Part shown: one piece after another, positions 1,033-59,055 of the stretch | Layout of the letters: the number at the start of each line of letters is the position of its first letter | Position numbering within the stretch: position 1 is the stretch's first letter | From: Tubiluchus corallicola | Lineage: Eukaryota > Priapulida > Priapulimorpha > Priapulimorphida > Tubiluchidae | DNA length: 64,000 bases | NCBI GenBank assembly: GCA_030141605.1 | Contig: JAQGDQ010000262.1 | Location: 216,978-280,977, forward strand | Reading direction: 5' to 3' | Made by a program: the position numbers and the translations under genes | The notes under the pieces: generated by a model | What the model was told of the DNA's origin: nothing | The model's input: the letters and a program-made list of their open reading frames with translations, nothing else | The model's database searches: none

Positions 1033-4000
1033 TGGATTATGAAGGATCCTCTGTCATCCAGCAGCTGACTGTCCGTTGCAAACAGATTCATTAAGCTCAG
1101 CAGAAACTTTAGAAAATAGCTGTTCATGTTTCCGGGAGGTGAAGATATGGCTCCTTTGACATTGTCCGGTAAGGAGACAGTATATTTGAGTCCGGCTGGA
1201 GACGATGATATTTCTGCTAACACTTCCAAGTTCCTCAGTACAACCTGAAATGTGAGAAATGAACAAGTGTATGTAGAACTGCATAAACAAGTGTATGTAG
1301 AACTGCACAAACAAGTGTATGTAAAACTGCATAAAAAAGTGTATGTAGAACTGCATAAACAAGTGTATGTAGAACTGCATAAACAAGTGTATGTAGAACT
1401 GCATAAACAAGTGTATGTAGAACTGCATAAACAAGTGTATGTAGAACTGCATAAACAAGTGTATGTAGAACTGCATAAACAAGTGTATGTAAAACTGCAT
1501 AAACAAGTGTACGTAGAACTGCATAAACAAGTGTATGTAAAACTGCATAAACAAGTGTACGTAGAACTGCATAAACAAGTGTACGTAGAACTGCATAAAC
1601 AAGTGTATGTAGAACTGCATAAACAAGTGTATGTAAAACTGCATAAACAAGTGTATGTAAAACTGCATAAACAAGTGTATGTAAAACTGCACAAACAAGT
1701 GTATGTAAAACTGCATAAAAAAGTGTATGTAGAACTGCATAAACAAGTGTATGTAGAACTGCATAAACAAGTGTATGTAAAACTGCATAAACAAGTGTAT
1801 GTAAAACTGCATAAACAAGTGTATGTAAAACTGCATAAACAAGTGTATGTAAAACTGCATAAACAAGTGTATGTAAAACTGCATAAACAAGTGTATGTAA
1901 AACTGCATAAACAAGTGTATGTAAAACTGCATAAACAAGTGTATGTAAAACTGCATAAACAAGTGTATGTAGAACTGCATAAACAAGTGATAAAGAATGA
2001 GTTTAGTCACTTTCACAATTGCACTAATAAAGTACCGTAAAGTTTATTATAGTTTACCCATCCATTCATTGACCAGGCCTTGTGCTATTCATAACTTTGA
2101 TTAACAGGCACACGCTGTAACCATTCAGCTATTCCTCTCAGCTCAATAGTACATGGAATATCAGTGCAGGCGGACCAAAATTAAGCAACCTTTACAGCTT
2201 CAGTTATGTTAATTAAACCTGTCAATCTCCATCAATTTATATCAAAAAAATTAAGCTATACATAGTGAAAAACGATAAAAGTGATTTTTTTTTATAACTG
2301 TGTCTAATTAATAGGATTCATATCAGCATATGTAGCAGTCTATCGATTTATCCTTTGTACTAAGCACACTTTTGTTAAATCCTCGTATGGGATAACTAGT
2401 ACTTGATTGGACTGATTTTGTTCTTGTGGAGAGTTTGCTTTACTCCTCCATAGATTGTAAACCAATTCAAGTGACACTTGGTATGCATATACTAAGCTAC
2501 CATGCCTATATACTGTCAAAATGTTTTTACAGTTTGACGTCGTGATGCGATGCGATGACGTCGTGCGATGGCATCACAAAGAGAATATCTCCTCTTTTCT
2601 TCTTTTCCAGCTTTTGGGTTGCAGGTGACATTAAACGTTAGAATAAAACTAGCATTGAACGTTAACCTTGAACACTGGTATAACTTTGGTGCGATATCGC
2701 ATCGGGTCAGTTATCGCATATTGAAATTCAACAGTGAAGTTGAACTCAAGTTTTAAACATTAGAACAGAAGAATTAGCATTGGATGTCTGACATTAAAAG
2801 TTAGAATATAGGAACAAAATCTTTTCTTTACAAATTCCAAGTTTCTGGGTCCCTCCTAAAGATTCATTTAGCTCTCTCTAGCTAATTTTCTGCCCGGTTG
2901 CATGACTGTTCTGTTCACAATGCATGATGGGATATTGTAGCTCATTTGACCTTGCTCCTGGAACCAGTGGCGGCTTGTAACTAAAATTAGTGGTGGTGCT
3001 GCTTCAGAAAAATTTTAGCCATTGTTTTAATACTGTGTAAAACAAAACAAACATATGTAATTTTAGTGTTGTAATTTTAAACAAACAAACATATGAGAGT
3101 TTATACATAAACTTGATAAAATCCTACTTAAAAAATATTTTTTGCCTACTAATAGCCTAAGTTTTCACAGTACAAGCTTGACCTGTTCATGGTAAGCGCG
3201 TGACAACTGACAACAAACTGTGTGAGTGACAGTACTTTCTCTTCCTGAGCTCAGACATGTGCACATGGCCGCCATTCACGGTAAGCGCATGACAACTGAC
3301 AACAAACTGTGTGAGTAACTGTGTGAGTGACAGTACTTTGTTACCTGGGCGCAGACGTGTGCGCATGGCTGCATGTGCACGACAGCCAAACACCAAGTTG
3401 CTGGAGTGCACTGTGCTGGGCCATAAAGCAAACAGTACTACCCTCACGTGCTCTGGTTTCGTACAAGTATAAAAAAATAACTAAAGAAACAAGACTTATT
3501 ATATCGAATATTATCGATGATATTGGTTGAGCTGCAGTTCCACAAGTACCTATACACTAGCCGCCACTGACTGAAACTAGAATACAAACCTCATCACAGG
3601 GATCCGACAATGTCTTCATCAGAACTGGAAATAACTCATCTACATGTTGGAATATCTGCAATAAAATTTAATCAAGCGGCATGAAAATAGTGGTTCAATA
3701 CAGCAGTCATAGTAGCAATAACAAAAAATCTGCATAGCTTTTGTAGATGTGTGCAGTTCACAGAGCTTATTACATGAGCAATGAAGTCAAACTTTCTCAA
3801 CTCAGCTGCATAAAATTTAAAGCCATGCAGGATCATTTTCACATTTTCACACTTATATACAATGCACTGCACCACAAAGGTTAAAGTCCAGATATCTTAA
3901 TCAAGTTATCTTAATTTTACATACTGTGAACAAATGATAGTCTTTCTATCTTTTATATCATCTCATATATGAGCTTCATTCATTACATCATTCCATTTTA

Positions 4001-5049
4001 AGCACTAATGTTTTTTTATCACACGATTCACTTTAAATTTTCAGATTATTTCCATTACTTTTTTTCTTTCATTGTGTGGGACAATCTAACAAGCCCTGCT
4101 TTTTGATTGCCCGCAACACATTTACATTTGTATATAGGTGAACAGTGTTTGAAGCTTTTCTTGTGCAGAAACAAAAACTTATTTGTATTATGTTCATTGT
4201 AGGCCCTTTCACTATATATTGTACATGAAACTATTGTAAATGTGTCACGTGAAATAAATGACTTACGACTTTCAGAAATGATATGCAATAGAAATATGCA
4301 CTGCTAAGTCATCTCAGGTCTCTACCAAAAAACTGCACAGATTTTATAGCAGGAATAGGAACAAAGTAATTAAAGATCATGAAAGGAAAAACTGTAGTAA
4401 ACTGTCACCGCAGGAAAGTTTGCTTGAACATGTAGAAGACATGTGGTCCATTTTAAAACACTGCTAATTTTGTTCATCCAACTAAAATGCACATGTGTCA
4501 TGACTGTCTAACTAACATTAACTCCAGTTGATCATCAATGCTGAATGCTTTTCATAAAGACATTAGAGATTGCATTAATAATGTGACATTATTGCTTCCA
4601 CACAGTCGAATAAAAATACACACACTTCGCAACAACTCAACTAAAGTCGCAGTACAAAAGGCCTGTTGAAATTTTGTCAAAGACTTCAATTTTGCAACTT
4701 GAGTCAGATGTGTGTCAATGCAATAACTGCATAACCAGCAAGAATATGCAAAAGACGTCTAGTCTAAAGAGTCAAACAGAAAATAATAAAAACAACAGCT
4801 AGTGCCAACACAGTTTTGTAAACACAAAGTCACCATATACAAAATTGTTGCTGAATCACCAAATGCAGTTTAGCCAAAACAATAGCTGAACAGCACAAGC
4901 AATTTTTTTTACTAACCTTATTTGGAATTTGTATGTGTAAGTGGTAAATCCAACGCAGTACAGACAACCGTGTTTGCGTGGAATTGTGTAACAGGTGCTT
5001 ACTAAGAACTTCCACGACAGGTGGTAGTGCTAACAGTATTTGGGAATCA
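1033..5049 (-). CDS. VAC14: VAC14 exons 10-12 (window-edge end of the gene)
   Basis: Exon 10 (4917-5049) codes [20 protein letters not shown] and [13 protein letters not shown], equal to the human KWLYHLYIKTPRK region. Exon 11 (3590-3655) codes [19 protein letters not shown]. Exon 12 (1033-1244, 70 residues) codes [16 protein letters not shown] and [16 protein letters not shown] and ends in phase 2 at a GTAAGT donor. The C-terminal exons, which in the family carry the Fab1/PIKfyve-binding region, lie outside the window. The acceptor of exon 12 is crowded by a 24-bp minisatellite. Confidence 0.94.
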
Positions 5050-8000
5050 CTGAAAATAGTTAAAAAACAAATTTAATAACAGTGTAGAGGTATATCGTTA
5101 GTTTAGTTTAAACATAATTTATTTAGGATTGGATTAGACAGTTTGTACAACATGATTTAGAATCCTCACCACAACAGACTTTATACACTATTTACAAGAA
5201 CATTTACAGTAAGAATAGACTATACTTAGTTTTTAGTATACTAAAGTTTTACTACAGTGATACATTAGACATTAGTAGAAAATGACGGTTAGTAAATATT
5301 AATGTACGATTATTTAAGAATGATGCATTTTATATCAGATAGAAACTACTGGAAGCGTTTAGTACATAATATAAAGTCATGTATACATTGGAATATTTTA
5401 CAGTTAGCAACATAGTTAAATTCATCTTTTCCGAATAATAACAACTTCAACAGATCATTATTTCCTAAGGCAGCTATATTAGGGTTTTCGGGCAGAAGTA
5501 TTTCATTTAATTTATCAAACATAACAACCCTAGTTTGTTGATGCTAGTAGCTGAGGTATATCGTTAACAAAGAAAGGATGCTCTAATTACTAGTTAGAGT
5601 AGAATACACAATAGTTATAAATAATTAATAAAACTACTTTGAGTCACGTAATTATATGACGATTTTATTATTCTAAGATCAGAAAAATAATGACATTTTG
5701 TATAGAAGCTCATGCAAAACACATTGAAACAACTGCTTAGATGTTGCACTCATTTGACAGCCTTGCTATGAAAACCAGGCTATGTTGACACTCTGGCAAA
5801 ACTCTGCATTTAGCAGTAAACAGCAAACCCCCAGCACAGAGTAAAACTCAAAATAAGAGAGCCTTTAAATTGGCAAGATCACTGGCACAGGGAAGTTGAG
5901 TGGGGTGTGGTGGGGGCGGCCTGCCCCAGGTGGCACTTTTTGATGAAGTGCGCTGGAAAAGGTTTATCGTGTCGGAAATGATAAAATACTTGGCACAATT
6001 TAACTTTCCAAGAAAGCACCGAGCTTACAGTGTCTTCTGCCCAAAGTTTGCAATTAGCCTGAGCCAGTGGTGAGGTGCTACACTTGATGGCGGAAACTGA
6101 TAAAAATTGTTGAATTTGGCTAGACACATTCATGGTTCGACACTTGGGCACTTTTTAGGCAGTGTGTATGTGTACTGGTTGCAAAAGTCTTGGGTCTGCC
6201 AGAGGTGAATGCAAAAGTCAGTAAACTGGGCTGTGACTCTCTTACAGACACGTCCAGAGAAACATTACTACAAACTCTTGCTTTTTCACTAAAGCTTTAA
6301 CTTGTAATTTAGTAAATGCAATAAACACATCGAAACGTCTCTATGTTAGTCATAATAGGGTATATTGGGCTAATGGCGGCCATTGATTAATGTTGGCCAC
6401 CAAGTTCCATGCACTCTAAACATGTCACATGACCTAGTTTGGGTTTTTATAGCATGCAGAGCCAATCAGCAGAGCCAGCATTGTTCAGCTAGATGTGTTT
6501 CCCTTGTTCTAATTGTCTATCACCAGCATCAGTAACAAACTTCGAGAAGAGTTGGGTGATTTACTACAATATCTCATAGTTGCCTTAGTGTTTTACGATA
6601 TTTTTAGTAACTACTATAATGAATAATCATGTATACTGAGGATGTTAAAGTCTATTTCAAATAATGAATTAAATGATTTTTTAATGAATTTTAATAAACA
6701 TACTGTAATATTTCATACAGCATGCCTGTGTACTGGTGCATTTCACTACTGGCCAACATTACCCCAACAAGTCCGCGTAATGTCGGCCAGTTAATTCACA
6801 GTGGCCGACATTAGCCAAATCAGATTTTTTGCATGAGTAGATAATTACTGGTAAGGTAAAATATATTGTGTAAAAAGCTTACTGAGATTGGTTCAATGAT
6901 TTCTCGGACCTCTGAGGTACTGATGCTTCCTGATCTTTATCATCCTCTGGCGTTATCAACTTCATTAGGCTATTATTGACAATTTTACTAGTTTCTATGA
7001 TGCGTTTGCCAGTGTTAAGGAAAATTCCAAGAACTCAGTAAAATACTAAACACAGAACTACATTGAAATTCTGTTCGATGACTACTGCAAAACATTGTCA
7101 TATGTCGCAAAAGTTTTCAGTCAGTTAGAAGAAGAAAAGAAAAACGGTTTACGTTTAGCAGAAAACTCGTAACATTTGAAACAAAATTGGGATTCTATGC
7201 ATAAATTTAAAATTTAACGAAGTATTACATTGTAATGTAAAGAATAGCTACAAAATAATGTAGTACTCGGTACAAACCCATCGCTATAATTAATCGCTTT
7301 TAGTATAATGCAGGGGTGTGCAAATTATCTGACTAGCCGGGCCACATTAAACTTTCCCGCAATTCCTGCGGGCCACAGGCAGTTTGATCAAGGAGCCAAG
7401 TACAGAAAGGCCTAATAATGATTTTTTTGCATCCGACCTGCGTACATCATTACTACTACACTCAAGAAACTATTTTAGAAGTTATTAAAATTTATATTAC
7501 AAACCATATATTTCTACTTTCAGGACAGATAGTGGTAATTTCATTACAATGCATATTAGTAATGCGTATCACACAGTCTGTGTAGTACAGTGACATTAAG
7601 CTACAACCGTCTTGTAAGGGTTAATGGCATCTCATCTAGTAGAAAAAACTACCCGCACTATCTTTGGGACGTGGCACGGACTTCAGCTAGATACACTCAA
7701 TTAATCGCCCGGGCCGCACTTTCATTAGGTTCATAAATCTCTTCGCGGGCCGCACAATTTCTCTCGGCGGGCCGCAATTTGCACACCCCTGGTATTATGG
7801 AAAAATAGTGTGTAAATGTAATTAATAAAATTCAATTGTTTAAATAAGACACAATAATGCAAACATTTTCCGGTTAGATGCTTTCGGGATGCACACATCC
7901 TGCCTACATTTTCCTTTGGCTACAACACTATCATTTGAATCAGGACTGATTTACGTACAACCTTGCATAAAATTCACACAAATTTTCACAGTTTTTCAAC

Positions 8001-11000
8001 AAGCACGGGGCCAGGATTTCCTGCAAAAGGATATTTTTCTTGATTTCGTCGTCGAATAGCAAATTTCGTCTTTCATCATCATATGCCAGGCATGGGAGAA
8101 TTGCTGTAAGCAGGCCGGATGCATATGGTAGCATTGAACGTTCAGACAGGCGAACAAACTCCTTTAACCACGTGATGGCTGTGAACTGTATCAAATCCTC
8201 TGAAAAATATGCATATTAAGTAGTCTATGAAAATTTACACTAACAAACAAAAACAAAAACAAGAATAATAATAGTACAGTATGCGCCGCTTAATAGACTT
8301 ACGGTTAATACACTCAAACACTTAATTGACTCAAAAATGCCTGGTACAGGTCGCTTCAATTGAAATATACATAAAAACTGTCGGTAATTGACTCAAATAA
8401 CTCAGCATAATTGACTCAATATTTTTCCTTCGCCTTGTTAAAATAAGAAATTTGTATGTGTCCAAAGAGCCTTTCGTACTTTTACTGTATCTTTACTTCA
8501 CTTCTGTGCATTATAATATAAGTACAAACAATCATTTTAAGTACCGTTTTGTTTGTAAGCAGGTACAGTATGTTTATCATGTGCTAATACGGTAGCATTG
8601 AGGGTTTTGCTTTGAATCTGTTACCCGCTCGTCCACTGCAATTAACCTCGCTACCCACGAATCACTTGTCTAGCGGTTTCCCTTTGAAGCTCCCGTTGCA
8701 AATCACGCTTTCAGTTAACAGTTGCAGGTACAGTCATTTTTGCAAGCAAACAGACTTGCGTGATTTAGAAAGTATAACTTTTTAATTTATTAATAAATTA
8801 ACTTATGTAAATTAATATTTTATATTAATGTAAAATATTTTTTTAATTGATAACTACACAAAGGAATTTAGGGATTGGTTCACGTCTAAAAATCATTAAA
8901 AACCTTTGCAGTGCATAGTAAGCTGATGACTCATACTTCTTACCAGTAGTTCTACACCCATCGGGTATAGGACACCGTCGGTCCCGAAGTGAGTCTATTA
9001 AGCGGCGCCTACTGTAGTAGTAACAAAATAAAATGAATTAGACCTTCAAAAGCTTCCTGTACAAACAAACAAACAAATAAATTTGCTTTTATTTGCATTG
9101 CCAAAAAGTGCCAAGTTACTTTAGATACATTGTAGCAAGTAAAAGAATTGGAAAAAAACAAGATATCAGGCATATAAAATCAGCTAACCTAGCCTTTCGG
9201 GAAAGTCTGGAAAGAAAATTAATGGGCATAACTGCCTTCCTCTGGTAGCTTAGAAGTACAGAAGTGAAGTAGAATAGAAAGGTAATACGTAAGTCTTAGA
9301 AGTTTTCAAAACTTGTCTCTAAGTTTGAAGAGAAACCTTTCTGTTGCTTCTTTTCCAAGTTTCGACATTATGAATTATTAATTACCATAAAACATATATT
9401 AAAGTGTAGCCTACCGGATAAAATAGTGACTATAATAAGCATTATATGTATTAATACATCTGATGCTTACCATTTGACTGGGCATGTACAATAAGTATGT
9501 TGACCATAGAAGGAAAATTGACTTTCTCCGGTGTACATGTAATGCTTTTAAGAAATTCACCCAACGCGGCTTCGCACCTGAAACAAACGTAACATTTTAA
9601 CTTGCAATAGTAGGAACTGTCGCGAATCAGTTAAAGGTTCGTGAGGAACGTAGGGAACAACAATTTTCTTCTTCTTTTTTAATGTGGAACTATTTGGCAA
9701 GAAGGCGGAAGAATTGCGGAACTACCTTTTTAGCAGACGAAAAAAAACGCTTTTGTGTTAAATTTTTCACAGAGTTTGGTGTTATTCTACATCTTTATAA
9801 GTTTTGATAAAAACATTTAGAGTTCTGATTAATCCATGTGTCTGAAACATTTGTTTTCACCTGCCTGCATTTATTATTTGCAGGTTGTCTGTCTTGTTTG
9901 AAACAAGCGCTTACCCGGATATCAGAGGGGGGGGGGGTGACGCCCATTTCCCATTTTGGCATGATTTTTAATTCTGTAAACTAAAAGTTTTAACAAAGAG
10001 CTTAAAAAACACACAAACATGACAGCAGCACAGTACAAATTTGATAAGAAGAAATCAAAATTTAATGAAATTATGAGAACATTTCTTAATGATGACTGTA
10101 GAAGCAGTCAGCCAGTGTTGTTCTTATACCACTCTGTTGACATTCTCGGTAAAGTACACTTGATTTTCTGTCCAGTGTGGTATTTTCTGAAGATTTCAGG
10201 TGGTAAAAGATGATATAATTCAAATTACATTTATGATGATCAATTTCATTGGGAAGATTTAAACAGTTCTCTGAGGGATGACAACGTTTAAGGCCATACG
10301 GTTAAGTGCTCACTGTAATCTGCCAATTTATTATAGATCGAGTAAATTTTTTTAATTTTTTTCACTTGCATTGAAATCTTCAACCAGGTCCAGTGCTAGG
10401 AAGTACGGGGCCCAATCAGAAAATTGTTAGTGGGGCTCTCTACCCTACAAAAGCTGAAAATTGATGTTTTATGCTTCGTGTAGTACGCCAGTCTCAGCCA
10501 AAAAGCATCGAGGACTTAAAGCTCCACCATTAGCCACAATGATATGTACTAGTAATTGAGAACCTGCATGACATATTTAATATTTTATTACAATTACTGA
10601 TATAGTGTTTGTGAATATGTACCTTCTAAAAACAGATGATAAACTGAAATTACAAAACAAATAAATAAACAATGAAACATAGATACACGGGGACAGACTG
10701 AATAGTTTCACTGTGTTCACAGTATCAAGAAACTTCGTGCATTAATTCGTCATAAAGTCCTTGACTCGAGCGTGTGTGCGGGGGCCCCCTCTTGGCGAGG
10801 GGCCCAGTTTGAACCCACTCTGTCAAACTGACTTAAAACTGGCCCTGTTTTAAACAATCGGTTAAACTTATATCCACAGTTATTACACATTATATACTAA
10901 GCAGCATTCAGTCCTAAGAACTGTGAATATTTCTAAACAAAAGAACTACATATAGCTAATTAATGCATGCCATCTTTTAGAGAACAAATTGTAAGTCCAA

Positions 11001-14000
11001 GTTGTACTATTTATACTGCAGTACGTGCACTTGCTTACATACATTTTCTTGATTTCTTGATTAGGATCTCCCAGAATTTGGAAAAGTCCATCAAGTATTT
11101 CGGGCAGAAAGCATAACATGTTAATATCAGGAACGGAATCCAAAACTGTAATCTGCAATAAGAAAGTAAATTATAATTAACTTAGGACACATTATTTCAA
11201 ATGATACCGAGATGATCAAGGCATTGCTAATCAAAGATCCCTATACTATTAACATGCAAACCAACTTATTAGAAAATTCAATTGGCTTCAATATTGCAAC
11301 TTGTCAACTTCTACAGGTTCAATACCCGTCCTGGGTGGTTTCATTCACAACTGCGATTCTGGCTGTTTATCTCAGTAAGTGAAGAAGCATACCATCAAAA
11401 GTTGGTTCAATGTACCTCCGCCATCTCATCTAGAGCCTCATCTGGGGGTTATCGTTCACAATGAAAGCAAAAATCTCGTTTTAATGACTGAAACGTTTGC
11501 AATGATCTGGTCTTATGGTATATTAAGCTATATTGTAGTTTTACATACCCAAGACACCACAAATTGTTTGGCAAATGGATAGTTTTACATACCCAAGACA
11601 CCACAAATTGTTTGGCAAATGGATTCTTTGTATAAATTCTCTCCCGCAGCAATGGAATAAAAGCAACTAAGTCAAATGAAGCACTTTCCGTCACAATATC
11701 CTAGAAAAGGCCACAAAATATGAAAACACAAATAATATTTACTCTCTTTTCAGGGCACGGCTTTTATTTTTTCAAACAGTAAATCTACGAGACCCTCATT
11801 CAAATGGGACCTTATTCAAGTATTGGCATTTTTAACTTATGATGAATCTGTCGCATTGGAGTATCAATAAATATAACATACTTAATAATACCATACTTTT
11901 CCGAACAATATCTGCAAGAGCCAAATGGTTACGCAAACTTTTGAGTACAATCAGCGCATCAGTACTGAGCACAGTCAGTCAGCCAGCTGAGTGATGTACT
12001 CTGATGAAAAGAGGAAAGCATGCTAAACAGTAGACTTTACATAATTCACAGAAACATTGTCAATAGAAAGCATGCTTTCTTACATGATCGGACAGGCATA
12101 TGATGGTATTTAAAAAACACCTGCATGCTAATCTGACCTCTGAATGAATAACAGTAAAATTTTGGAGAGCACAGCCTGGCGAGTAGCATTTTTCAATACA
12201 TCGATATACAGCCCGGGTGGCTACTCAACCATGGGCGCATTATTTTTCCATTCTGCTTCCTTGGGAGCTTAATCGGATTGGCCCTCAATCAAACATGGAG
12301 TCTAAAAGAGTAAATACTGTACATCTGTGTCTATAAAGTAAAAATGTCTGATGTGACTTGCCATGCTAGCAAATCAAAAGTCGTAAAAGTAATCAATCAC
12401 CACACAATCATCAGAACAAAGTTGTTGTGTAAACAGGCATTTATTTACAAATGATGCTGAAACAAAATGGGCCTATTTTAAATTACGTGTCAGTTTTTTG
12501 ATCTGATAGACCAGCTACCTTATGGTTGCTATATAATATATATTGCGGAACTATAACTCCAAAAACGATTTACGTAGTTCATGGTTACATACATTTGCAA
12601 ACATTGTCAAAACTATTTACCAGGGTTCCCACAGAATTTTAAAATAAATTTCCCTGACTTTTCCCTGACGAAATATTGATTTTCCATGACCAAGATAAGC
12701 AGAAAATGCATTACCAGTTTACAAATTCATACATTTTTGTGTATGGACATTCATACATATACTGATATATAATGTGTCGGCCAATCATTATTTTTGGAAC
12801 AGAAATCGAAACTGGGAACCTGCCATAGCAAAATTTTATTTGAACACAAATCGCTGAAAAATATGTTTAGAAAAATATTGGTTGATGGTGATCATTTTTG
12901 CATCCCTTTCCAATTTGCTTGAGTTTCTGCCCCATTTTCCCTGACGTTTTACCAAATAATCTTTTTCACTGACTTTTCCATGACTTTCCAGGATAGCCTG
13001 TATTTTCAAGGATTTTCCCTGACCGTGGGAACCCAGATTCAAACACTGCCATTTTTACCAGTCAGACACTACTTGTTGAAGTATTGTGATTATAATGTAT
13101 AACATAAATACTGCAGATGAATCACATCTTGTTTTATTCATAAGCAAAGAAAAACTAGAACATCACAAGTTTGCACTGTGGTTTACGTCAACAATCAGTT
13201 ATTTGAAAAATCAGTTACTGGATATGCTCAGGTTTAATTTAACTTTATGTAATTTAAGTTTCACCGTCAAGTTTTCCATAGATGTGGAATGAAACTCACC
13301 TTCATTAGACGATCGAGCAGCTCGGATCCATTTTTTACATTCTGGTCCGGATCAGCAGCTAACTGTGAATTTAAATAAGTCATTAAAAACTCAAAGAATG
13401 CAGAATAAATCTTGCAAATTTGGAGTTTGAGTTAGTGTTGAACAAAGTGATTTAACAAAGTAAATTTCAAACAGTAAAAATTAGAACTCAAAATAAAATG
13501 AAATAAATTTTAAATAAAACCTGGAAAAGATAAAACTCCATTTGATTCTAAAACTTGTGTGTTAAACATTTTTGCGTTTATTTAATATTGTGAAAATTAT
13601 ATAATGAAAGAGTTCATGTAAAAAATTACAAGATCAAGCAGTGCCAAAAGTATATATGCAATAGCATAATCAAGGAAAACATACATGATGTTTAATCAAT
13701 GTAATGTAAAAATTACATGCAGTAATTTCATGTTTTCATTTAGCAAACACAAGAACATTACAATTACATTTAACACTAGAAGGAGCAAGCAGTCACCTTT
13801 ATGAGTTTTTGAAATACAAGTACACTGTACATGCCCTGAAGCCAGATAATGTTTTTGAAATGTGATATTGTGTGACTCTTCACTAATTTACATTACACTT
13901 TATAAAATGTCATCATGATCATATTTTGGTATCTGTAATGTTATTCTTCTTCTTCTTCCCAGCTTTTCCCTATTCGGGGTCGCCGTTGTGACTGAGTCTT

Positions 14001-17000
14001 CTCCACGCATTCCTGTTGTTGACCATCTCTTCATTTATGTCTTCCCTTCCCACAAGATCTTCACCGACTCTTCTTTTCAGGTGTCCATACCATCGCAATC
14101 TTGCGAGGCTTCCACTACTTTTGCTGTTCCTCTGATATTATTATTTCTAGTTTTATCTCTTCTTGTTATTCCCACCATCCATCTCAACATCCTTATCTCC
14201 ACCACACCCATTTTCTTCTCTTCAGTCTTCTTTAGAGAAGCTGCTTCCAGCCCAGAGATTAGAGCGGGTCTGACCACTTCTTTGTGGACTTTCCCTTTAA
14301 GTCTCACCGACTCATTCTTAGAAGGTTTTGGGGCAATTTTTACAGGCGGATGCCCTTCCCGACCCTAACCCTCCCTATTTATCCGGGCTTGAGACCGGCA
14401 CTGCGTTGGCCTGACTTGCCCCCTCCCCCCCAGTGGCTAGGTATCTGTAATGTTATTAGTTTCTACATACCCACCTAGAAAAACCAAGCGATCAAAAATG
14501 ATACATTGTCAAGAGACACACTCTTTATATTCAATAACAATACACTTTGTTGATGAATCGAGGTTCTGTGCCTGGAATTCTAGTGTTACATAGTTATAAA
14601 GATTTTTTGTCTCTCTAGTGTTTTATATCTTGGGCCAATCAAAACTTAAAATGAAACTAAAACTAAAAAAATGAAACACAAACTGAAATTGTTGTTTTTC
14701 CCGAACCATATGCTTCACTGGATCAGTCATGATCACGTTATACGTTTACAATAATTTCTGCTTTATCACTTAGAAAAATTTGCTTTCATTTTAGCATTTT
14801 CACTGCAAACAAATGTACAACACTGCAGTTAGGTAAAGTGAGCTTATAGTCCAACGGTCTAGCACAGTAATGAAACTACATCACTCAAAATTCTTTACGC
14901 CAATAAACTAACAATGGCAGCGGTCCATTACATATTTAGTAATAGTGAGCCAATTTACGAACAGCGTCCAATTAGCATTTTGCTACCTGTCTTTCCAAAT
15001 ATAATGGCAACCAAGAATCCCGGGCATTTCTGCACTTCAGATTCTTTCTAGTGCCTACAGAAAATTGGCACTGGTAAATCGCAGAAGTGAATAGTTGGCA
15101 GGAAACAAAAGGTTTTGCTTTGACTCAACACACAACGCTTTGTGTTGGCTAGTGGTGTAAAATTCTTCAGACTTTCTAGTAACTTACAGACTTTGTGCAT
15201 TTTATACGATTATGAGGTGCAAAAATAAGTATGCTGCTATGTGTAGATTGTGTCAAAAGGTGTGATGCCATACACATTCTGGGAGCAAAATTAATCCTAT
15301 AAAATGTGTGGGCTGCACGTGAACATATAAGATAATGACTGAGTTGTAATTATTATAATAACTCTTGCGGTTACTGCCCAGTTTGTTTAGAAATTTGTAA
15401 CTATTCAGATGTTCATATTATTTTTCAAAATATGAGATATTTCCAAGAAGATGTTGTCATACTTTATTGCGACAAAGTTTAAATAATTAATTTGTCAAAT
15501 CAACATTTGCAGTTAGTCTGCACAATTGCTTAGCCATTCTAATTAAATAGTAAATACTAGCAGCCATAGTTACGAAAAATTATGCTACTTGATCTTTCTA
15601 GGTAGCCAAAGTTCTCACTCATTCTAGTGTTAAATCTGTATCCAGTTTTACTTCTGCCTTACAATGAGTTACTAATTTATCCAACAATGAATGCAGTCAT
15701 ACTTACCCTACTTAACCCGTCGAATATGTCATTGAAAAATGGAAGAGTCGATCCCCGTGCCACTTTGACGACGTTAAACAGAGCCTCGCATGCATAGTAG
15801 CGCACTCTGCTGTCTGCATCACTGAAGCAAGCTAATATCGGTAATGTCAAATCACTGATGTAATTGTTTGTGTCCTATAAAAGTTGAAGTTGCCTGAATT
15901 GTAAACTAAATACTTACTAAATTGCTGATGGTCAACTCAAGAATACATGAGCTTAACCCTTTCATACCCGTTGTATCCCGTGGGATACGAGAATATGTTC
16001 TGCCTTTAAAATTAATAAAATTTTAAAACTGACAGTTATTTGATCTGTTAATAGTTATTTTGATTTAAGCCAATAACAATAGACTAAAATGGTGATAAAA
16101 TGGCAAACTAGAAAATCTACATAGCATAAAAAACTGTGCAAGGTACAGTACTTTAGAGACGACTTTGTACAGATCAGCATTGCATGCATACTAAATGTCT
16201 TAAATACTTTAAAAAATTATCAGCAGTTGCAAAATGAAGCACATTTTATGCTTCCATTGAATCCCAATGTATCCCGTGGGATACGGGCTATATTTAGCAC
16301 GCAGGCACAGGTAGAAAAATAATAATTATGTGTAAACAAGATGGACATACTGAACAAAAGTACCAAGCCAAAAATTTTTTTCTTATTAAAAAAATAATTT
16401 GGGACTGAAAGGGTTAAGGGCATCTGTCTCATAAATTTTGTCAGTAAGTGCCTGTAAGTTCTGGTGTAGAGGAGAGACAGCCTGAAAACGGCCTAAGACA
16501 AAAGAAAAAGGTCACACGAAAGGAAATGGTTCATAAGAAAGGCAATGTAATAATGAACATCATTATTTGTATCATTCAAGAGACAAGGCCTACAGGTGCG
16601 CAATTTCAAAATGAAACTATGTAAAGGAATGAGCCTATATTTCACTTAAAGACATTTACAGTGTAAGACAAGCATCTGTTAGCCTTTAAATCATAGGATC
16701 ACATGGTGAAAAAAAATTTGATTCTAATGCCAATATCCTACTTCAGTTATCATTATGTGACCACTGACCAAGATGTTAGATATGCAATCTAAGGAGCAAA
16801 TACCTCCAAAAAACATCTTCTTTCAACTTTGTCACATTTCAGTTAAATTTGGTTTCAACAATTTAACATAGACGGACAATATTATTTTTGTTCACAACAC
16901 CACAATTTGGCTGACCACTCATTATATTGTTTTTCTTGTAACGACTCTTCAATTATATTTAACAAATCAGATGTCAGTAAGCTTAAAACAGTAGCTTATT

Positions 17001-17828
17001 TGTTTAACTATATTTAAATTAACCTTTTGCTCTGACTAAAGCCCCAGTTAAATTAGGTTAATGTCAGGTAAAATTAAAGCTTAACCTTTCCAAGAGCAAT
17101 TGCAGTGGCAGCAAGACCTATGAGGCCACCTTTTCTACTGTGAGGATTAGAACTCAGAGCAAAATCTTGACCCAGAACTTTAAGCAGTTTCTTGATCTGA
17201 GATGTATTGCTGGCGGCATTGTACTCACGCACCATCCTGAAATATCAAGCCAGACCCCTGTAACTCATGTCCACATCAAAAAAATCTCACATGAGGTCAC
17301 ATTTGCATGAAAATTAGCTTGAGGTTTGGCATTTCCGTAATTCAATGAGAAGTCTATCATTGTCAGGCAAAGTAAGCCTAAGTGACCTTCCAATTACATT
17401 TTTCAGATTTCGTTACCTTTGTGATACATATAATGTGATTAATATAGAGTAATGAAACAGTCATGCTCCCACAAAAGTGATGTCTGATTTGCGCAAGAAC
17501 AACATCAGGATCATATTACTCGGACTTACAATGCCCAAAGTGAAAGGTCAACTCTTGAAAATACCAAAACATGATGTGAAAAGGACATGAAACTTATTGT
17601 AGCATAAATCCGAAATTATTTCGTTCAAAATAAGTCCTTTATCACAGTGTACTTAAGCGACAAGAATGACAAATTATTGGTTTAACAGTGTAGACCAACT
17701 CTGGTTCACTTTTCCTTTAATTTTGCTTACCTTTCTATTTCAAGGGCAGCAACTTTTCTTTTTTCGTACAGTTTATCATTTAACGCCCTAACAGTAGCCA
17801 GTGTTAGAGGAGCGTAATCTTTCTCCAT
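1033..17828 (-). CDS. VAC14: VAC14, PIKfyve complex scaffold (3'-incomplete, 12 exons)
   Basis: Vac14 is the HEAT-repeat scaffold that holds the PIKfyve/Fab1 lipid kinase and the FIG4 phosphatase together on endolysosomal membranes and so controls PI(3,5)P2. Exons in order of transcription: 17731-17828, 17086-17236, 15707-15874, 13300-13362, 11593-11700, 11043-11152, 9471-9577, 8035-8199, 6883-7003, 4917-5049, 3590-3655, 1033-1244. They total 1502 bases, 500 codons plus two bases with no stop, and every junction keeps phase. Blocks matching human VAC14 include [55 protein letters not shown] and [13 protein letters not shown]. Human VAC14 is 782 residues, so about the last third is missing to the left; no further exon is visible in 1-1032. 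The start is the first ATG (MEKDYAPL), equivalent to human MNPEKDFAPL. Introns are U2-type except intron 8. The family assignment is very secure. Confidence 0.96.
1262..1989. repeat. 24-bp minisatellite, about 30 copies, next to VAC14 exon 12 acceptor
   Basis: The unit is AACAAGTGTATGTAGAACTG plus CATA, with two common variants (GTAGAAC or GTAAAAC) and a rarer TAC/TAT change, arranged in runs. Because 24 is a multiple of three, all frames stay open over long stretches, giving meaningless repeat peptides. On the gene strand each unit reads TTTATGCAG, an acceptor-like sequence. The array ends about 17 bp from the first base of exon 12. Confidence 0.95.
2965..3569. mobile_element. hAT-type miniature element in VAC14 intron 11
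   Basis: The ends are CAGTGGCGGCTTGT and ACTAGCCGCCACTG. The flanking octamers CCTGGAAC and ACTGAAAC agree at 6 of 8 positions, like an aged 8-bp target duplication. Inside, roughly 3190-3380 is a partial tandem duplication of a 95-bp segment. The right end is only about 20 bp from exon 11. Confidence 0.6.
4031..4140. repeat. Dispersed repeat, inverted copy at 43127-43235
   Basis: About 110 bp, including TTTTTGATTGCCCGCAACAC, recur in opposite orientation at 43127-43235. No terminal repeats were recognised. One copy is in VAC14 intron 10 and the other in pocket-protein intron 5. Confidence 0.6.
6357..6823. mobile_element. Inverted-repeat (foldback) element in VAC14 intron 9
   Basis: The left arm GGCTAATGGCGGCCATTGAT is repeated in inverted form at the right end, where the complement reads GGCTAATGTCGGCCACTG. 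GGCCAACATTA-type blocks occur inside both arms. The superfamily is unknown and no clear target duplication was seen. Confidence 0.5.
6883..8199 (-). CDS. VAC14: VAC14 exons 8-9, joined across a U12-type AT-AC intron
   Basis: Exon 8 (8035-8199) codes [14 protein letters not shown] through LAYDD and ends in EIKK plus one base. Exon 9 (6883-7003) starts GC and codes [21 protein letters not shown] and a polar linker ending at a GTAAGC donor. The junction makes KKSI, matching human DRKKSIKEV. No GT donor in exon 8 gives a comparable join; the ATATCCTTT donor and TTCCTTAAC branch site do. Relative to human, about ten residues ([10 protein letters not shown]) are inserted after LAYDD, just before the intron. 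Confidence 0.92.
7004..8034 (-). other. U12-dependent AT-AC intron (VAC14 intron 8)
   Basis: The intron begins ATATCCTTTT on the minus strand (8034 downward), a perfect match to the minor-spliceosome donor RTATCCTTT. It ends GGCAAAC (to 7004). A perfect U12 branch-site consensus TTCCTTAAC lies at 7014-7022, about 11 nt before the end, inside the tight spacing typical of this class. The intron is 1031 bp long and carries a 481-bp hAT-type miniature element (7311-7791). The reading frame and alignment to human VAC14 hold only with these boundaries. Confidence 0.92.
7311..7791. mobile_element. hAT-type miniature element, copy A (inside the U12 intron)
   Basis: The ends are CAGGGGTGTGCAAATTATCT and AATTTGCACACCCCTG. 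The flanking octamers GTATAATG and GTATTATG match 7 of 8. The element is GC-richer than its surroundings (GGGCCGCA blocks) and nearly identical over 480 bp to copy B at 41085-41567. Confidence 0.9.
8277..9014. mobile_element. pogo/Tigger-like miniature element in VAC14 intron 7
   Basis: TA at 8275-8276 and 9015-9016 flank inverted repeats: CAGTATGCGCCGCTTAATAG on the left and, as complement, CAGTAGGCGCCGCTTAATAG on the right. The interior repeats AATTGACTCAA. About 100 bp (8332-8430) also occur inside the 6-bp-target family at 23802, 28536 and 40436. Confidence 0.75.
9471..11700 (-). CDS. VAC14: VAC14 exons 5-7
   Basis: Exon 5 (11593-11700) codes 36 residues, [20 protein letters not shown] through FVVSW. 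Exon 6 (11043-11152) carries the near-invariant [14 protein letters not shown], and exon 7 (9471-9577) carries [12 protein letters not shown]. The donor of exon 5 lies inside a perfect 44-bp tandem duplication, so a second identical donor sits 44 bp further on. Only the first donor (exon ending at 11593) keeps the frame, because 44 is not a multiple of three. Exon 6 ends after two bases of a Met codon at a GTATGT donor, completed by the G that opens exon 7. Confidence 0.94.
10385..10847. mobile_element. hAT-like miniature element in VAC14 intron 6
   Basis: The left end is CAGGTCCAGTGCTAGG and the complement of the right end CAGGGCCAGTTTTAAG. The flanking octamers TCTTCAAC and TTTTAAAC agree at 6 of 8 positions. 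The interior has GGGGCCC blocks near both ends. Confidence 0.5.
11537..11624. repeat. Perfect 44-bp tandem duplication across the VAC14 exon 5 donor
   Basis: The units 11537-11580 and 11581-11624 are identical. Each contains the last 32 coding bases of exon 5 and the first 12 intron bases, including GTATGT. The lack of divergence in a neutral intron copy points to a recent event. Confidence 0.95.
12621..13036. mobile_element. hAT-like element remnant in VAC14 intron 4
   Basis: The left end is CAGGGTTCCCACAG and the complement of the right end is CTGGGTTCCCACGG. Several copies of TTTCCCTGACTTTTCC lie near both ends. The flanking octamers do not match, so it is old or rearranged. Confidence 0.55.
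13300..17828 (-). CDS. VAC14: VAC14 exons 1-4 (N-terminal HEAT repeats)
   Basis: Exon 1 (17731-17828) codes 32 residues and ends in phase 2 at a GTAAGC donor. Exon 2 (17086-17236) carries the [18 protein letters not shown] helix pair. Exon 3 (15707-15874, 56 residues) carries [20 protein letters not shown], the best conserved HEAT repeat of the family. Exon 4 (13300-13362, 21 residues) carries [19 protein letters not shown]. These repeats form the N-terminal part of the Vac14 superhelix. Intron 2 hosts a TTAA-flanked miniature element (15957-16413) and intron 3 a dead retrotransposon fragment (13950-14440). Confidence 0.95.
13950..14440 (-). mobile_element. Dead non-LTR (RTE-type) retrotransposon fragment in VAC14 intron 3
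   Basis: On the minus strand a reverse-transcriptase C-terminal stretch is readable ([33 protein letters not shown]), followed by GGCGACCCCGAATAGGG and a GAA-rich tail at 13950. The block upstream (CGGTCTCAAGCCCGGATAAA) is typical non-coding sequence of such elements and recurs at 20505-20572. It is a 5'-truncated, decayed copy. Confidence 0.75.
15957..16413. mobile_element. piggyBac-like miniature element, longer copy
   Basis: TTAA at 15953-15956 and 16414-16417 flanks inverted ends CCCTTTCATA and CTGAAAGGG. The element contains the near-palindrome GTATCCCGTGGGATAC twice, near 15974 and 16269. It is longer than the copy at 56886-57207, which lacks about 140 internal bases including the second palindrome. 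Confidence 0.75.
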
Positions 17829-25700: not shown

Positions 25701-28700
25701 GCCCAATATTACGTCATTCAGTGATGCATTCTGGGAATGCTTTCTAGTGAGACATGTCACATGGTTTTCTGACACATTTCAAATTTTCTATACTTATGGA
25801 CCTTTTATGCTTTATGCATTGCCAATTTTCAAATAAACACACAATTATCTAATTTTTGAAGCCTAATATAAACGAAAGAAAAGAAATATGATGACTTGAA
25901 CCGGTACTCTTTGGATTACAAGTTTATTGCAATGACTATTAGACCACACAGCCCTCAGTGATTATAACAGAGCCTGATTTAATTCTAACAGCTATATACA
26001 TTTATACTGGATTTTTCACATTTCCTTCTTTTCAGTCGAACATAGCTGCCACGAAAGGTCTTAGGTTCAAGTCCAGTATTGTAAAAAAATTTCAGACTTA
26101 ATTTTTTAGTATTGCTTTCGCGATTACGCTAGCAAGAATGCAAGTGACAGAACATCCACAGCTAGAAAATGTCTAAGAAAAAAGTAAGGTACAAAACTTA
26201 CATGACTGTGTGATTGAGGTTGCAGTCTGTAGCATCTCATAATTTCTTGAAATTGTCTGTCTTCACCGCAAACCTACAACAAATGGAAAAAAACAGTGTG
26301 GCTTCAATCATAAACGAAAATGCAACACAGAGAGAAGACAGACCAGCAACACAGAAAATAAAGTTTTACTTTGTTTAGCCTGGAGTGTGTCTGTCAGACA
26401 GCGTGGATAAGCAAGCAAGCAAGCAAGCAAACAAGCAAGCAAGCAAGCAAGCAAGCAGGCAAGCAAGCAAACAAGCAAGCAAGTTTATTAGTTTATCACC
26501 ATTTTTAAAATAGCAAAATACATAACTAAGAGATTCATAAATCTGTACAACATACAATAATATTACAAAGTGCAAAAGTAATTATTGATTAGCGGTGAAA
26601 GGGTGGCGAAAGAACTATAAGTTATCCAGGTCAGCCACCCTCTCAGAATTGTTACTAATATAATTAATTAATTAATGCGCATGTACCAGGTAATTAAAAA
26701 TTTAAATCAGTTCAGTCAGTAGCTTGTTACTTTGAACAGCAGCAGCTGCAGCGGCGGCGACGACGACGACGACAACAACAATAACAGCAGGAGCAACAAC
26801 ACAACAACAACAAGAAAACAGTATTTATGTTGTCTTATGTTTAGGTAATATTAGAAAAAATCAGGTTAATTAGTAGATAGTAGGAAAAACACCACAAAGA
26901 GGTCAACTTTCGCCATTCCCACAATACCTTGCCCATAACATAGATGCAACACATTAGAAGCTGGTCAATATGTCTGTCCTTCAGCAGGTCGATATGCTGC
27001 GTAAGGCAATGCTCAAAACATGTCCAAGCTTTTTGACGAACGTCACTGCTCAAATCCAGACGTTCGCACAGATCTCGTAGTCGAACGCTCACTAAATGGT
27101 ACACCTGCAACATTACAACAGGATTACAGAATTTAACAAGTTTTATAAACCAAATGATAATCAATTTTTCTCTATATCCAACAGTAGATATAAGGCAGTG
27201 ACTAAAAAGTAATAGACTATATACAAACTTTAATTTGTATACACAAAGTAAAAAATAGACTGAACGCATTTTTATAACATACAAGGACAGACGTTACTCT
27301 CCATACTGCAAAAATTCAAATCCGTATTTTGTATGACAGTTAAAACAGAGACCAATGACATTGTTCAAACTATGCAATGGTTTAGACTGGAACCCTAGCC
27401 AGTGCACATGCTGGACCAACCAGAATCTGAAATCGAAATTTGTTAGACTTGTTATAGATTTGTTAGACTCAAGAAAATCGAATTCTAGTCTTTCTTTGAA
27501 TATCTGATAACTACAGTATCATAATGGCAATCTCGATATACAATGGTACATAAAACGATTACCTTTCTGAAGAAGAGTGCCAGGGAACCTCCTTTCTTTG
27601 GTTTATTTGGTGCAACGACAGCTTTTGAGGGACTTGTTAGCACCGTTCCAGACGGCGACGATATTGGCACGATGACGTATGGCCCTGAATCAGGTTGCAC
27701 ACCTGTAACAATTTCAGCAAAATTATAGACTTAGTGGTAAGATCGAAATGAAAATCAGATTCGTATCAAATATCTGATGGAAGAATTCTGTTTTTTTTCT
27801 GCAAATGTCTTTTAACTGCTTAGAGAAAGTACAAAATTGAAAGCATGAATGTAGAACTTTCATAATTGAAGCAGAACATTAAAAACACAACGTAAATAAC
27901 ATTAAACTGATCTAATTAAAAAATAAGTGTGCACCTAAGATTTAGCAGAGATTTAACAACGAACTAATTACCAAAAAACAAGATTTCTTGACGAAGCAAT
28001 CAACTTATGCAATGTGAAACAAATAAGTTATTGAGTGGTTTTGCTATTAAGTCATATTACTTGCCTTAGCTGGTCTAGCTTGCATTGCATTGCGCCATTT
28101 TGCCCGAGCAAAGCTGTTTGCCATTTTTATTTTAGCTTATCTGGATTTTGAATCAGCTATCATTTAAGAAATCAGCTACATATTAACGGCCATCTTGCAC
28201 AGAGATTTTCACGGGTGAAAATGGACAAATTCCATTTAATTAAAATACTCGCATTTTAATTATATTCCACGAAAGTAAATTAATAACATGCACTCCGTCG
28301 TTCAATTTCAGCAGTAACGTGATGGATCCTCAGATGGTATACTAAGAAGCCTTTATTTCAGTGGAAATGTGATTTATTCTGCTCAGAGGGTGTACCGTGA
28401 AGCCTACGTGAAAAGAAGCCATGTCGGAGAAAGACATAACATAATATAACCTTTACCTTGTCTTTAATCAGCAACAAACAAGGGAATTACAATAAGCACA
28501 AAATATTTCCCTAAACACATCAACACTTCCTTCTACAGGGATGAGAATGATAAATTGCAAAAAACTCTGAAATAGGCCGGGGGTTTTGGGGCCGCCTAGG
28601 CCCCCAATGGGGTTGAGGGGCTTTGAAGCCAGCAACAAATTGCAATTTTGTGACCACAGAGAACCTCTAAGTGGACTTAAAATATGAATTACCTTGTTTC

Positions 28701-31284
28701 ATGCATAATTCAAAATACCCAACTATCAAGGATACATGATACCTAATTGTCTGAAAAACGCCTAAGTACTGGCAGCTCCTGTGCAAAAGTATATAAAAAC
28801 TGTCTACAATTGACTCAAATAACTCCGCACAATTGATTCTATATTTTTATACATAGAGATATACACGTGGTTACACTGATGTACGTGATGTAAACAAAGT
28901 GACGGCCTGCCAACTAGTGGTCAGTTTGTGAAATAATGTACTGGGCCCGTAAAAATTTTCTCAACGAATTTACACGATTTACAAAAATGGTACTACTGGT
29001 CTTCCAAAAACTCGGAATTCCGCATATCCGCGGAAAATTCTCATCCCTGCTTCTACTAAATGCATTTAATAACTTTTCTTTTGCCGCAGGCTCTGCAGAT
29101 TTGAAGGGATGCCTATGGTTTTGAGCAGGGTCAGATCTGCTGCCAGGGGTACCAAAATGATGAAATCACAATGCATACACTACAGGCAACAAAGTTTATT
29201 TTTAAAAGATAGGAGCCTGCTAGATTAACCTGCAAGGAGCCATAAAGGTATAGTTATGTTTGACTTTTCTCTAGTTTGTTTTATGTTTTAATCGGTTAGT
29301 TAAACGCTTTGCTTATTTTGTTAATCATCATTTCATATTTTTCATTTTATTTCTTTGTTGCTTATTTAGTTATTTCGCTTTCATGTTTAATGTATCACCC
29401 CATAAATCATGTTAACAGCAGCACTACAAATTTTTTACAATTTACACTAACCTGAGAAGGGTAGCTGACTCGATGACCAATCGATGATTTCGCTACCCTT
29501 TCTCCTGCACCCCCCTAACTCTTTCCTTTATGCTTAATTCATCCTTTTTAATCAATAACTATAAAAATAATAGTCAATTTGTATACTGGTGTAAATGAGG
29601 AAATAAATAAAAATGTCTATGTCTATGTCTATTATGCCACTGTTTTGCTTGGTCCACACTTCTACAAAAAAAAGAACTGCCACTAAGCAACCAAACTGAT
29701 TGCACTCCTTGGATGCACAAAACATTTTCTTACACATATTAGTTGAATTTCAGTAAGCACATCTGGCTCTAATGTGAACAAACCTTGTATAATTACAGAT
29801 GACGGAAAAAGTCGACGCTTAGCCGAACTTCCTGGTGCCGGCGAACTGAAACGATCTTGTACAGTCGGCGCAACAGGTGACATGGTGACATCTATGAATA
29901 AGCAAATAAAACACAATAGATATCAGTGACATCTATGAATAAGCAGATAAAACACAATACATATCAGCGACATCTATGAATAAGCAAATAAAACACAATA
30001 GATATCAGGGACATCTATGAATAAGCAAATAAAACACAATAGATATCAGGGACATCTATGAATAAGCAAATAAATCACAATAGATATCAGTGACATCTAT
30101 GAATAAGCAAATAAAACACAACAGATATCAGTGACATCTATGAATAAGCAAATAAAACACAATAGATATCAGTGACATCTATGAATAAGCAAATAAAACA
30201 CAATAGATATCAGTGACATCTATGAATAAGCAAATAAAACACAACAGATATCAGTGACATCTATGAATAAGCAAATAAAACACAATAAATATCAGTTTTC
30301 AGAAGCACCAATAAACTACGAAGAAATGGTAGTTTCTTTTTGACGAAAAAAAAAGAATTAGAAACAAAGTAGTTTGGAAATTTAACTAATAAAACTCTTG
30401 CTTTTTTACAGACTACAATGTACCACTTTTATGATGTATTATTTTCTCAGTTGAAATCTAACACCGTGCACCGGATAGCTGATCGTTAAAAAACATCATT
30501 GCAACAACAGGTTTGTCTTAGATAAACATATACATATCAGCATAGTTGTAGCGACTAAATTGGGCCCACAGACCAGAAGTATTGAACACAGCATACCAGT
30601 TTTGGTAGAATTGTTGACTGCTACACGCTGAAGTACAGTTTGCTTCTGCGGAGAAGAGTTGACACTCTGGGAACCGGGATTTTCATGTTCAATTTGACTG
30701 GGTAGTAACACCTAACAAAATTAAACAAAACTGAATTAAGTTTGGACAGTACAAAAGCTTAAGCTACCATTTATTTCATAAGTATTTTTCACTTAATAAC
30801 ACTATTTCATTTAATTTTTAGTTCAAATAAATTATCTGTGTTTCAACTAACATGCTAGAAAGCAAGGTTTGTGCTAATTTGGCATTAACAAACTGTTCAA
30901 ACCTAATCCAATCACGACTTTGCAGCATGTTCATCTTAAACTGACAAAGTGCTGACTGGCTGTGTAACTGCAGGAAAATGTTTCGTCATGAACCCAATCA
31001 TATGATTTAGATACAGAAAAGAAAAATTTTTATGTAGTTGATCTGCAAGCATAGATCCGTACCAAACGAGCAAACAACTGTAATTCATGGGATGGGAGGA
31101 GATGGAGAGAGAGAAAGAGAGAGAGAGAAGGAAGGAGGGAGAGGGAGACAGGGGAAGTGAGCAAGAGAGAGTGAGAGAGAGGGTGAGCAGAAAGAGAGAG
31201 AAGGAAGGAGGGAGAGGGAGACAGAGGAAGTGAGCGAGACAGAGAGAGACAGAGAGAGAGAGCGAGAGAGAGAGCGAGAGCGAG

Positions 31285-31343
<59 letters not shown>

Positions 31344-34300
31344 AGAGAGAGAGAGAGATTTCAGCAAATGTTACAAATATTTAAACAGTGCAAGGAAACA
31401 CCAGCACAAAAGGGTAACAAGGCATGACCTTAGTATAACCTCTATGTCACTTTTTGCTCTTTCACTTACGTCTTCACAAGACGGCAATCCACTTTCTGCT
31501 AATTCTATTTGTCGCCACAACGGTGACTCGCTCTTCCACGCCAAACTCTCCAAAATCTTTTCTTCAATCTGAAATGATAACAGTAGATCACACAATACTT
31601 TAATTATGTTTTGTGTCATTGATATATGGTCTTCGTTGTAAACACTCTGCCTTTTTATACATACAATATGGCATGCTGTAGAGTAGCAAGCTTCCAGCAA
31701 TCAACAACAAATGGCAGGACCTACTTCAAGTAAACAGATGTCTCCTGATAATACATAATCCTCTAAGATGCCTAGTTTGAACTGACAGAGTTACCTTAGC
31801 CACGTTTAAACATAAATGCCTCTTCACTAAACATGATAAATAGAAGGAATTATAATGGCAGACGCTCACTGCCAAGAAAAGATTTTATTCACTGTCACCA
31901 ACCCATTTACTAATGAGGGCCATCATTGCTTAATTTTAGTTTATAAGCAAGCAATGTATAAACTCAGCTATTCCCTCAACCCAGTTGCTTATCCGGAGTT
32001 CATTAAAGCATAACGAGGCGAAAATACGAAAGATAGTCTAACAAGTAAGAGCTCTTCCAAATTTCTGGAATCAACTAACCAAAAGTCTATTTTTCTAGTA
32101 ACGAATAATGTATGAAATATCGTTGAATGTACAAATTTAACACAATTCAAACATAATTAGATCTCTTTTCAGTACAAAAAGTCAATCCTCACGCAGAGTC
32201 AGAACAGGTCTGTGAATGACTAATGTCATCATCAAAGAGCTTTCAATAACAAACATGTAAAAATGATGTATTGCTGATGGTTGAGTTATGTTTGTTTGCT
32301 TACGTTTCAATGTTCGAATTAATTTTTTCGCTTGCCAATAAAATTTCAAGAAAATGAAGATCTGCCTCAAAAGAGAAAACACAAGAAAAACGCTACATCT
32401 TGAGTACTAACTTAACTTATTACCCCGAAACCAAGCTAACATCATCATCCAATGATTCGTACATCCAGGGACATGATTCTGTTCACCTCCCTATGCCAGG
32501 ACTCCCTGCCCGCCGCAATGACCCAAGTGCATTTATTTCTAAGGATCAATGCTGAAGTATTTAAATCTTTCTGTGCAAAATCTAAATATGTTAACATTTG
32601 TCCTCCTGCAGGTTTTTTAGCTGGTTCTATGTCTTGTTGAAGAGCTAGGTAGTCTAAGCATATGCCCAATTCATCTTAAACGGCGTCTTTTTATTTTTCT
32701 TGTCCAAGGTTCTTCTTTTATTTTTTCATATAGATCTTTGTTGAAATTTTCTTTGGCCATCTGATACCCAAAATGTTTCCGTAATTTCGCCTTTGAAACG
32801 CATCGATTTCAGCTTTATGATTTGCTTTTAATGTCCAGAGCTCAGAGTTATACAGCAATACAGTTTCAACTGAGGCTGAGAATATTCTAATTTTTGTTTA
32901 AAAAGAAATCTTCCTATTCTCAAAAACTTTTGTGAGTTGTGAGTAAGCTGAAAATGTCATTATCTTCCGTCTTGATATGTCGTCTTCTGTAGACATTTTA
33001 ACTTCACCACACGTAACATGTTCTTATGATAATTAGTTTAGTGCTCTGTAGACGAAATAACCAAAAGTGAAGAGTAACAAAGATTTATGTGGCAAGAAAC
33101 AAAAATGGACCGAAAATGCTAAAGGAAAAACCAACCCTCAAACAACATTTACTGCACCATAATGTACAATTAAAAATATTAAAATCACATAATATATGCA
33201 CATAAAATGTCTTGCTTAAAATGCAAAATAAATGTAAAATTTTTTTATCTCCCGCCAAACGAAAGTCGCTGCCGGCATATTTGAAGAAATGATGCAAGCT
33301 GGCGTCTGCTGGGCAGCGTGAATGCTGTGAAGGCAAGCAGTGATGAAGGTACGCATTGGAAAATGTCTACAGTTTGCTTAGAAGTTCTGTTATTCTAGCG
33401 TTGTGCTCAACTGTGTTTATGGAAAAAAATCAGTCATAAATCACGCATAAATTATGACCAAATTTAAAGTGGTCCCGTAGCTTTAATCTACAGGAATATA
33501 CCTTAAAATATGTAAGTAGTGTACATTAATTGCGTAAATAATCAATTTACACAGACTTTTGTTGACTTTCAGGTACACATGCAAACTTGCGAACATACAG
33601 TAAGTGCCGGGCAGGTTACTTAGTTCTTAGACAATGCTTTATTAGTTAAAAAAAGACTGCTGAAGCACCTGGAAGAATAAGTGTTTACATTTTATGGAAA
33701 TCGAAAGACACCATGTTTCGTTCAAAATGACAGCACCCCCCCCCAGCATGAAGTGATCGCGACTTCAAATTGATTTTACTAATTACACGAGGCACTTAAA
33801 TCTATCTGAAGTCTTCCCATTACCACACTCACATTTTAGTAACCGTCAAAGAAATCAAGGGGAGATGATGAATGAATTTCACACACAATGAGCTGAAACG
33901 AATTACCTGATATCTCTAATTCAGAATGGTATTTTATTGTTAAGATTAGCTAAAGACCGAATAGTGCGGCAGCAGGTGGGCAGTGGGGCACCCAAGCGGC
34001 ATAGCGACTCTTTCAGTACAATTCTCGTTCCTCACAAAAACTCAGAACAGGTCTGTGAGTGATAACTGTCATCATTAGAGTCTTAAGACGGCAAACAATT
34101 TCTCATAAGTCATTATTTCCTCAGCTCAATTCTGCTGTGATCAGAATTACGCTACTCCGCTTGGTGTTTACGCACATTGCGTTGGTCAAACATATATAAA
34201 AGGCGAAAATAGGGCATTTACGAAAAACAATATTCACAATGAAGTCAAACTAAAATTGTCCCAGTGTCTCGCAAAGCAAAAGCAGTGTCTCGCACTTCTT

Positions 34301-58750: not shown

Positions 58751-59055
58751 CAGGTAATAAAGTCACAGGCAAAGAGTTACAGATGAAAAAGTTATAGAAA
58801 AAAGTCACAGAAAAAAGAAATAACCCTAACCCCAGTCCTAACCTTAACCATAAGCCTAACACTAACCCCATACCTAATCCTAACTCTAACCCTAACCCTA
58901 ACTATAAACCTACCCTAACCCTAACTATGACTTGAATATTTTTGTTTGATTACTTGACTTTATTTCCTAGCCAAAATTGGGACTTTTTTCTTTCGAGTTT
59001 TTTCCTAGCCAAAATGGCGACTTTTTGATGACTTTTTCCTGTGACTGTATTACTG
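58751..59055. mobile_element. Inverted-repeat element carrying a CCCTAA-rich core
   Basis: The left end CAGGTAATAAAGTCACAGG and the complemented right end CAGTAATACAGTCACAGG are inverted repeats. Between them (58822-58926) lies a degenerate array of CCCTAA/CCTAAC units, with perfect runs near 58885 and 58915. The second half repeats TTTCCTAGCCAAAAT. The superfamily is unknown. Confidence 0.6.

Follow-up and report, generated by a model that had tools for sequence, protein, structure and literature searches.

Introns of the minor class are excised by a spliceosome in which U11 and U12 recognise the donor and the branch site and U11 is replaced by U6atac. In human, 26% of U12 introns belong to the AT-AC subtype, against 47% in fruit fly and 8.6% in honeybee (PMC7367187, Table 2), and a human share of about 26% is also reported in PMC10639083. 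The preliminary description of this locus called AT-AC introns a small part even of the U12 class, which is right for some species only. The clusters of U12DB comprise 565 GT-AG and 204 AT-AC introns, and of 198 human U12 introns whose genes have fly orthologues, the fly lacks 160 and has kept 16, while 18 are U2-type and 4 ambiguous (both from PMC2831892). VAC14 does not appear by name among the 19 Drosophila U12 introns of Table 2 in that paper. A literature search, with supplementary catalogues outside its scope, found no text tying VAC14 to U12 introns among the papers listed, and the names AT2G01690 and FLJ10305 combined with U12 gave no literature match. U12 is likewise absent from the main text of a VAC14 patient report (PMC12528970). 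The corresponding human VAC14 intron may well be listed as minor-class in supplementary catalogues.

The 64-kb window (the whole stretch of DNA that was analysed) has a GC content of 36% and contains split genes of eukaryotic type. One of them is VAC14, whose eighth intron has the ends and internal signals of the AT-AC subtype. The features are the following.

1033..17828, minus strand: 12 VAC14 exons and 11 introns (10 GT-AG and 1 AT-AC, intron 8), placed by alignment to a provisional human VAC14 sequence, Pfam and reading frame
8035..8199, minus strand: VAC14 exon 8, ending in ...DDEIKK plus A (phase 1)
8026..8034, minus strand: U12-type AT-AC 5' splice site ATATCCTTT, with AT at 8034-8033
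7004..8034, minus strand: intron 8, AT-AC, 1031 nt, phase 1, putatively U12-dependent
7014..7022, minus strand: U12-type branch site TTCCTTAAC, branch A at 7015
7004..7005, minus strand: AC 3' splice site
6883..7003, minus strand: VAC14 exon 9, first residue S

The 12 collinear exons (17828-1033) form a single ATG-started open frame of 1502 nt without a stop. The provisional human VAC14 sequence matched all 12 in order, each with an E value of 0.002 or better (1.4e-15 for exon 8 and 2.3e-4 for exon 9), and the remaining listed matches were at chance level (E >1). This likeness to the human protein suggests that the gene comes from an animal. In the translation of exons 6-12, Pfam recognised Vac14_Fab1_bd (PF12755; 27.1 bits, cut-off 22.1) and HEAT (26.8 bits, cut-off 23.5), with five further HEAT-like families below their own cut-offs; the two accepted matches do not span the exon 8/9 junction. 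Both the identity of the gene and the 12-exon frame given in the preliminary description were thus borne out. VAC14 continues beyond exon 12, either outside the window or within its last 1 kb, and we take the Fig4-binding C-terminal part to lie there. A search of solved structures for VAC14 chains returned no match. Relatives of the protein were sought in two contig collections that do not cover eukaryotes, where 1 pattern match among viral contigs and 58 among genome contigs were found and none was confirmed.

Several other elements were observed in and around the gene. The 3' end of VAC14 exon 5, together with its GT donor, is duplicated in tandem at 11536-11624 (44 bp, perfect), leaving two identical donors 44 nt apart, the second of which would shift the frame; the duplication may have arisen recently or be an error of the assembly. 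Just before the acceptor of exon 12 ends a minisatellite (1262-1989) with about 30 copies of a 24-bp unit. Acceptor-like TGCAG sites occur in these units, and two frames are open from the repeats into exon 12, one of them the exon 12 frame. Upstream of VAC14 and on the same minus strand lies a retinoblastoma-family gene (26844-35154), for which three of the six ORFs submitted had domain matches, RB_A twice and RB_B once. An interstitial TAACCC array, TTAGGG-type on the opposite strand, is found at 58821-58925; TTAGGG is the telomere unit in many animals, but not in most insects, and the array is thus a weak clue to the taxon.

Read from exon 8 to exon 9, the intron has the layout ...ATCAAGAAAA / ATATCCTTT ... 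TTCCTTAACACTGGCAAAC / GCATCATAGAA..., and its 3' end takes the form TTCCTTAAC-N8-AC, with 11 nt from the branch A to the last intron base and 10 nt after the branch motif. Against the U12 consensus strings (donor [A/G]TATCCTTT, branch TTCCTTRAC), the donor and the branch site each match at 9 of 9 positions; the best matches in the other 10 VAC14 introns reach 2-7 of 9 for the donor and 4-7 of 9 for the branch. In the whole window TTCCTTAAC occurs once, both strands counted, and ATATCCTT once per strand. The perfect donor and branch site, the terminal AC and the 11-nt spacing had all been claimed beforehand, and each was recovered at exactly the coordinates given. The join itself, described as a KKSI matching human KKSIKEV, also stands, yielding KKSIIET with the frame kept. 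Phase 1 fits a U12 reading, since U12 introns are biased against phase 0 (PMC7367187). Judged from these sequence signals, VAC14 intron 8 is very probably U12-dependent, belongs to the AT-AC subtype and would be spliced as such, and it looks like a real, clean minor intron of a kind already known.

The motif pair alone is modest evidence, because it also arises in shuffled DNA. The window was dinucleotide-shuffled 400 times and searched for ATATCCTT (8 letters) followed by TTCCTTRAC with an AC at 7-17 nt; a donor-branch pair less than 2 kb apart was present in 13 of the 400, and the mean number of pairs within 20 kb was 0.215. The expectation for such a pair at the exon 8/9 junction and in frame is about 1e-7, a rough figure obtained by multiplying base-composition probabilities, which ignores dinucleotides and the choices made after seeing the site.

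AT and AC ends are also shared with the U2-dependent AT-AC introns known from sodium-channel genes, and removal of intron 8 by the major (U2) spliceosome would account for the same termini. Those introns have G at position +5 (PMC2831892), whereas intron 8 has C at +5 and C again at +6. This difference at +5 disfavours the U2-dependent class, as do a donor and a branch site that are both perfect U12 types, and we regard excision by the major spliceosome as extremely improbable.

A major-class GT-AG intron would instead require exon 8, whose frame stays open until a stop at 7942, to extend past the junction and join an AG acceptor somewhere in the interval 7033-6909. The 9 GT donors from 8120 to that stop, combined with 13 acceptors, give 30 pairs that keep the frame. 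However, the stretch from 8120 to the junction is free of GT, and therefore a GT-AG donor must lie past the KK codons or, like the one at 8139, in the conserved part of the exon. The same holds for an extra exon within intron 8, which would still need such a donor. With a matrix of approximate human values, none of the 9 donors scored above -1.4 and the lowest had -10.4, whereas the six accepted donors that were scored, those of exons 6, 7 and 9-12, lay between 0.2 and 5.1; the narrowest margin between accepted and rejected donors was about 1.6 bits in this approximate matrix. The pyrimidine fractions of the acceptors (0.19-0.62) were also lower than those of six accepted ones (0.56-0.75), with the two ranges overlapping at the 7033 acceptor. 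Moreover, 28 of the 30 joins lose IIE, which aligns to IKE in human VAC14, and the other 2 gain residues. A GT-AG intron at this place is thus very unlikely.

A second scan took donors from 8150 and acceptors to 6970, and found 26 AT-AC, 21 AT-AG, 11 GT-AG and 8 GC-AG options that keep the frame. The donor at 8034 was the only one to reach 9/9, and GT or GC donors reached at most 4/9. The nearest rival keeps this donor and a U12-type intron, with an AT-AG end at 6995 in place of the AC: the frame is preserved, the donor is still 9/9 and the branch A lies 20 nt upstream. That spacing is longer than the one to the AC at 7004, and the join drops SIIE, giving KKKTSKIV without the S, I and E that match human KKSIKEV, which makes the AT-AG end highly improbable as well. 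The preliminary description held that exon 8 can only be joined through the AC; the signals and the frame agree with this join, but "only" is slightly too strong, as the end at 6995 is also in frame. The reasons for discarding the GT-AG, GC-AG and AT-AG alternatives were the strength of their donors, their fit to the branch consensus and homology. The minor-class signals, their spacing, the frame and the absence of a good GT-AG route are established for the AT-AC join.

In the established mechanism for minor introns, U11 and then U6atac would pair with the donor ATATCCTTT, and U12 would pair with TTCCTTAAC, bulging the branch A at 7015. This A would attack the first intron base, and the minor spliceosome would link the A that ends exon 8 to the GCATC of exon 9, producing KKSIIET. 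We infer that the RNA is spliced by the U12 route and that the minor spliceosome has been kept in this species. An Rfam scan of the 64-kb window alone gave no match.

Intron 8 also carries a miniature element (MITE), of which a second copy is found elsewhere in the window.

7311..7791, no strand assigned: MITE inside intron 8, 481 bp, with 16-nt terminal inverted repeats CAGGGGTGTGCAAATT
41085-41567: second, closely similar MITE copy, 483 bp

The copy in intron 8 has 8-bp flanking repeats GTATAATG/GTATTATG with one mismatch. The second has the CAGGGGTGTGCAAATT terminal repeats, with one mismatch at one end, and perfect 8-bp flanks TCGTAAAC. We take both copies to be hAT-like. The next intron, intron 9 (5050-6882), is a GT-AG intron with a fairly U12-like donor GTAAGCTTT (7/9) and branch (7/9), the A lying 10 nt from the end. 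It begins with GTAAGC and closes with a pyrimidine-rich stretch followed by CAG, and its likeness to U12 introns is probably due to chance.

Immediately before the AT-AC junction, VAC14 has 10 residues (8035-8064) beyond the provisional human sequence, which at that place reads YDD-RKK-SIKE. This extension makes the alignment of exon 8 to the human sequence stop at 8060, which leaves 25 nt to the junction uncovered. A degraded donor, ATTTGCTAT, is found at 8064, in frame and exactly 30 nt upstream of the donor in use, with 6/9 matches to the U12 type; splicing there would yield YDDERRSIIE, equal in length to human YDDRKKSIKE. The minor-class 5' splice site might have shifted 30 nt downstream in this lineage, which we consider unlikely. 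In that case ATTTGCTAT could be a fossil of the earlier donor and the intervening stretch a decayed tandem copy, since DDE-RRNLL and DDEIKKNIL (the latter running into the intron) resemble such a copy of the exon end and donor. In favour of the copy, only 11 of 5000 shuffles reached their peptide score, for a short stretch chosen after the fact; against the shift, an unrelated AT site at 8126 in exon 8 also has a U12 donor score of 6/9. The DNA similarity of the putative copies was not above chance, being matched at 1806 of 9133 places in the window, at 109 of 714 places in exons and in 778 of 5000 shuffles, and the best DNA alignment of the two stretches was an 8-nt match in another register. 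A tandem duplication in exon 8 accordingly failed at the DNA level. If the donor shift were true, a U12 5' splice site would have slid and sequence from the intron edge would have become protein.

The U12-type AT-AC reading of intron 8 matters for annotation and for the history of the gene. Gene predictors that accept only GT-AG introns would miss or misplace it, and its position provides a marker for the age of the minor intron of VAC14. Compared with known U12 AT-AC introns, intron 8 is alike in its donor ATATCCTTT, its branch site TTCCTTAAC, the short spacing between branch and end, the AC end and phase 1, and its signals show no difference. It is also alike in its setting, as the lone such intron beside 10 GT-AG introns in the same gene.
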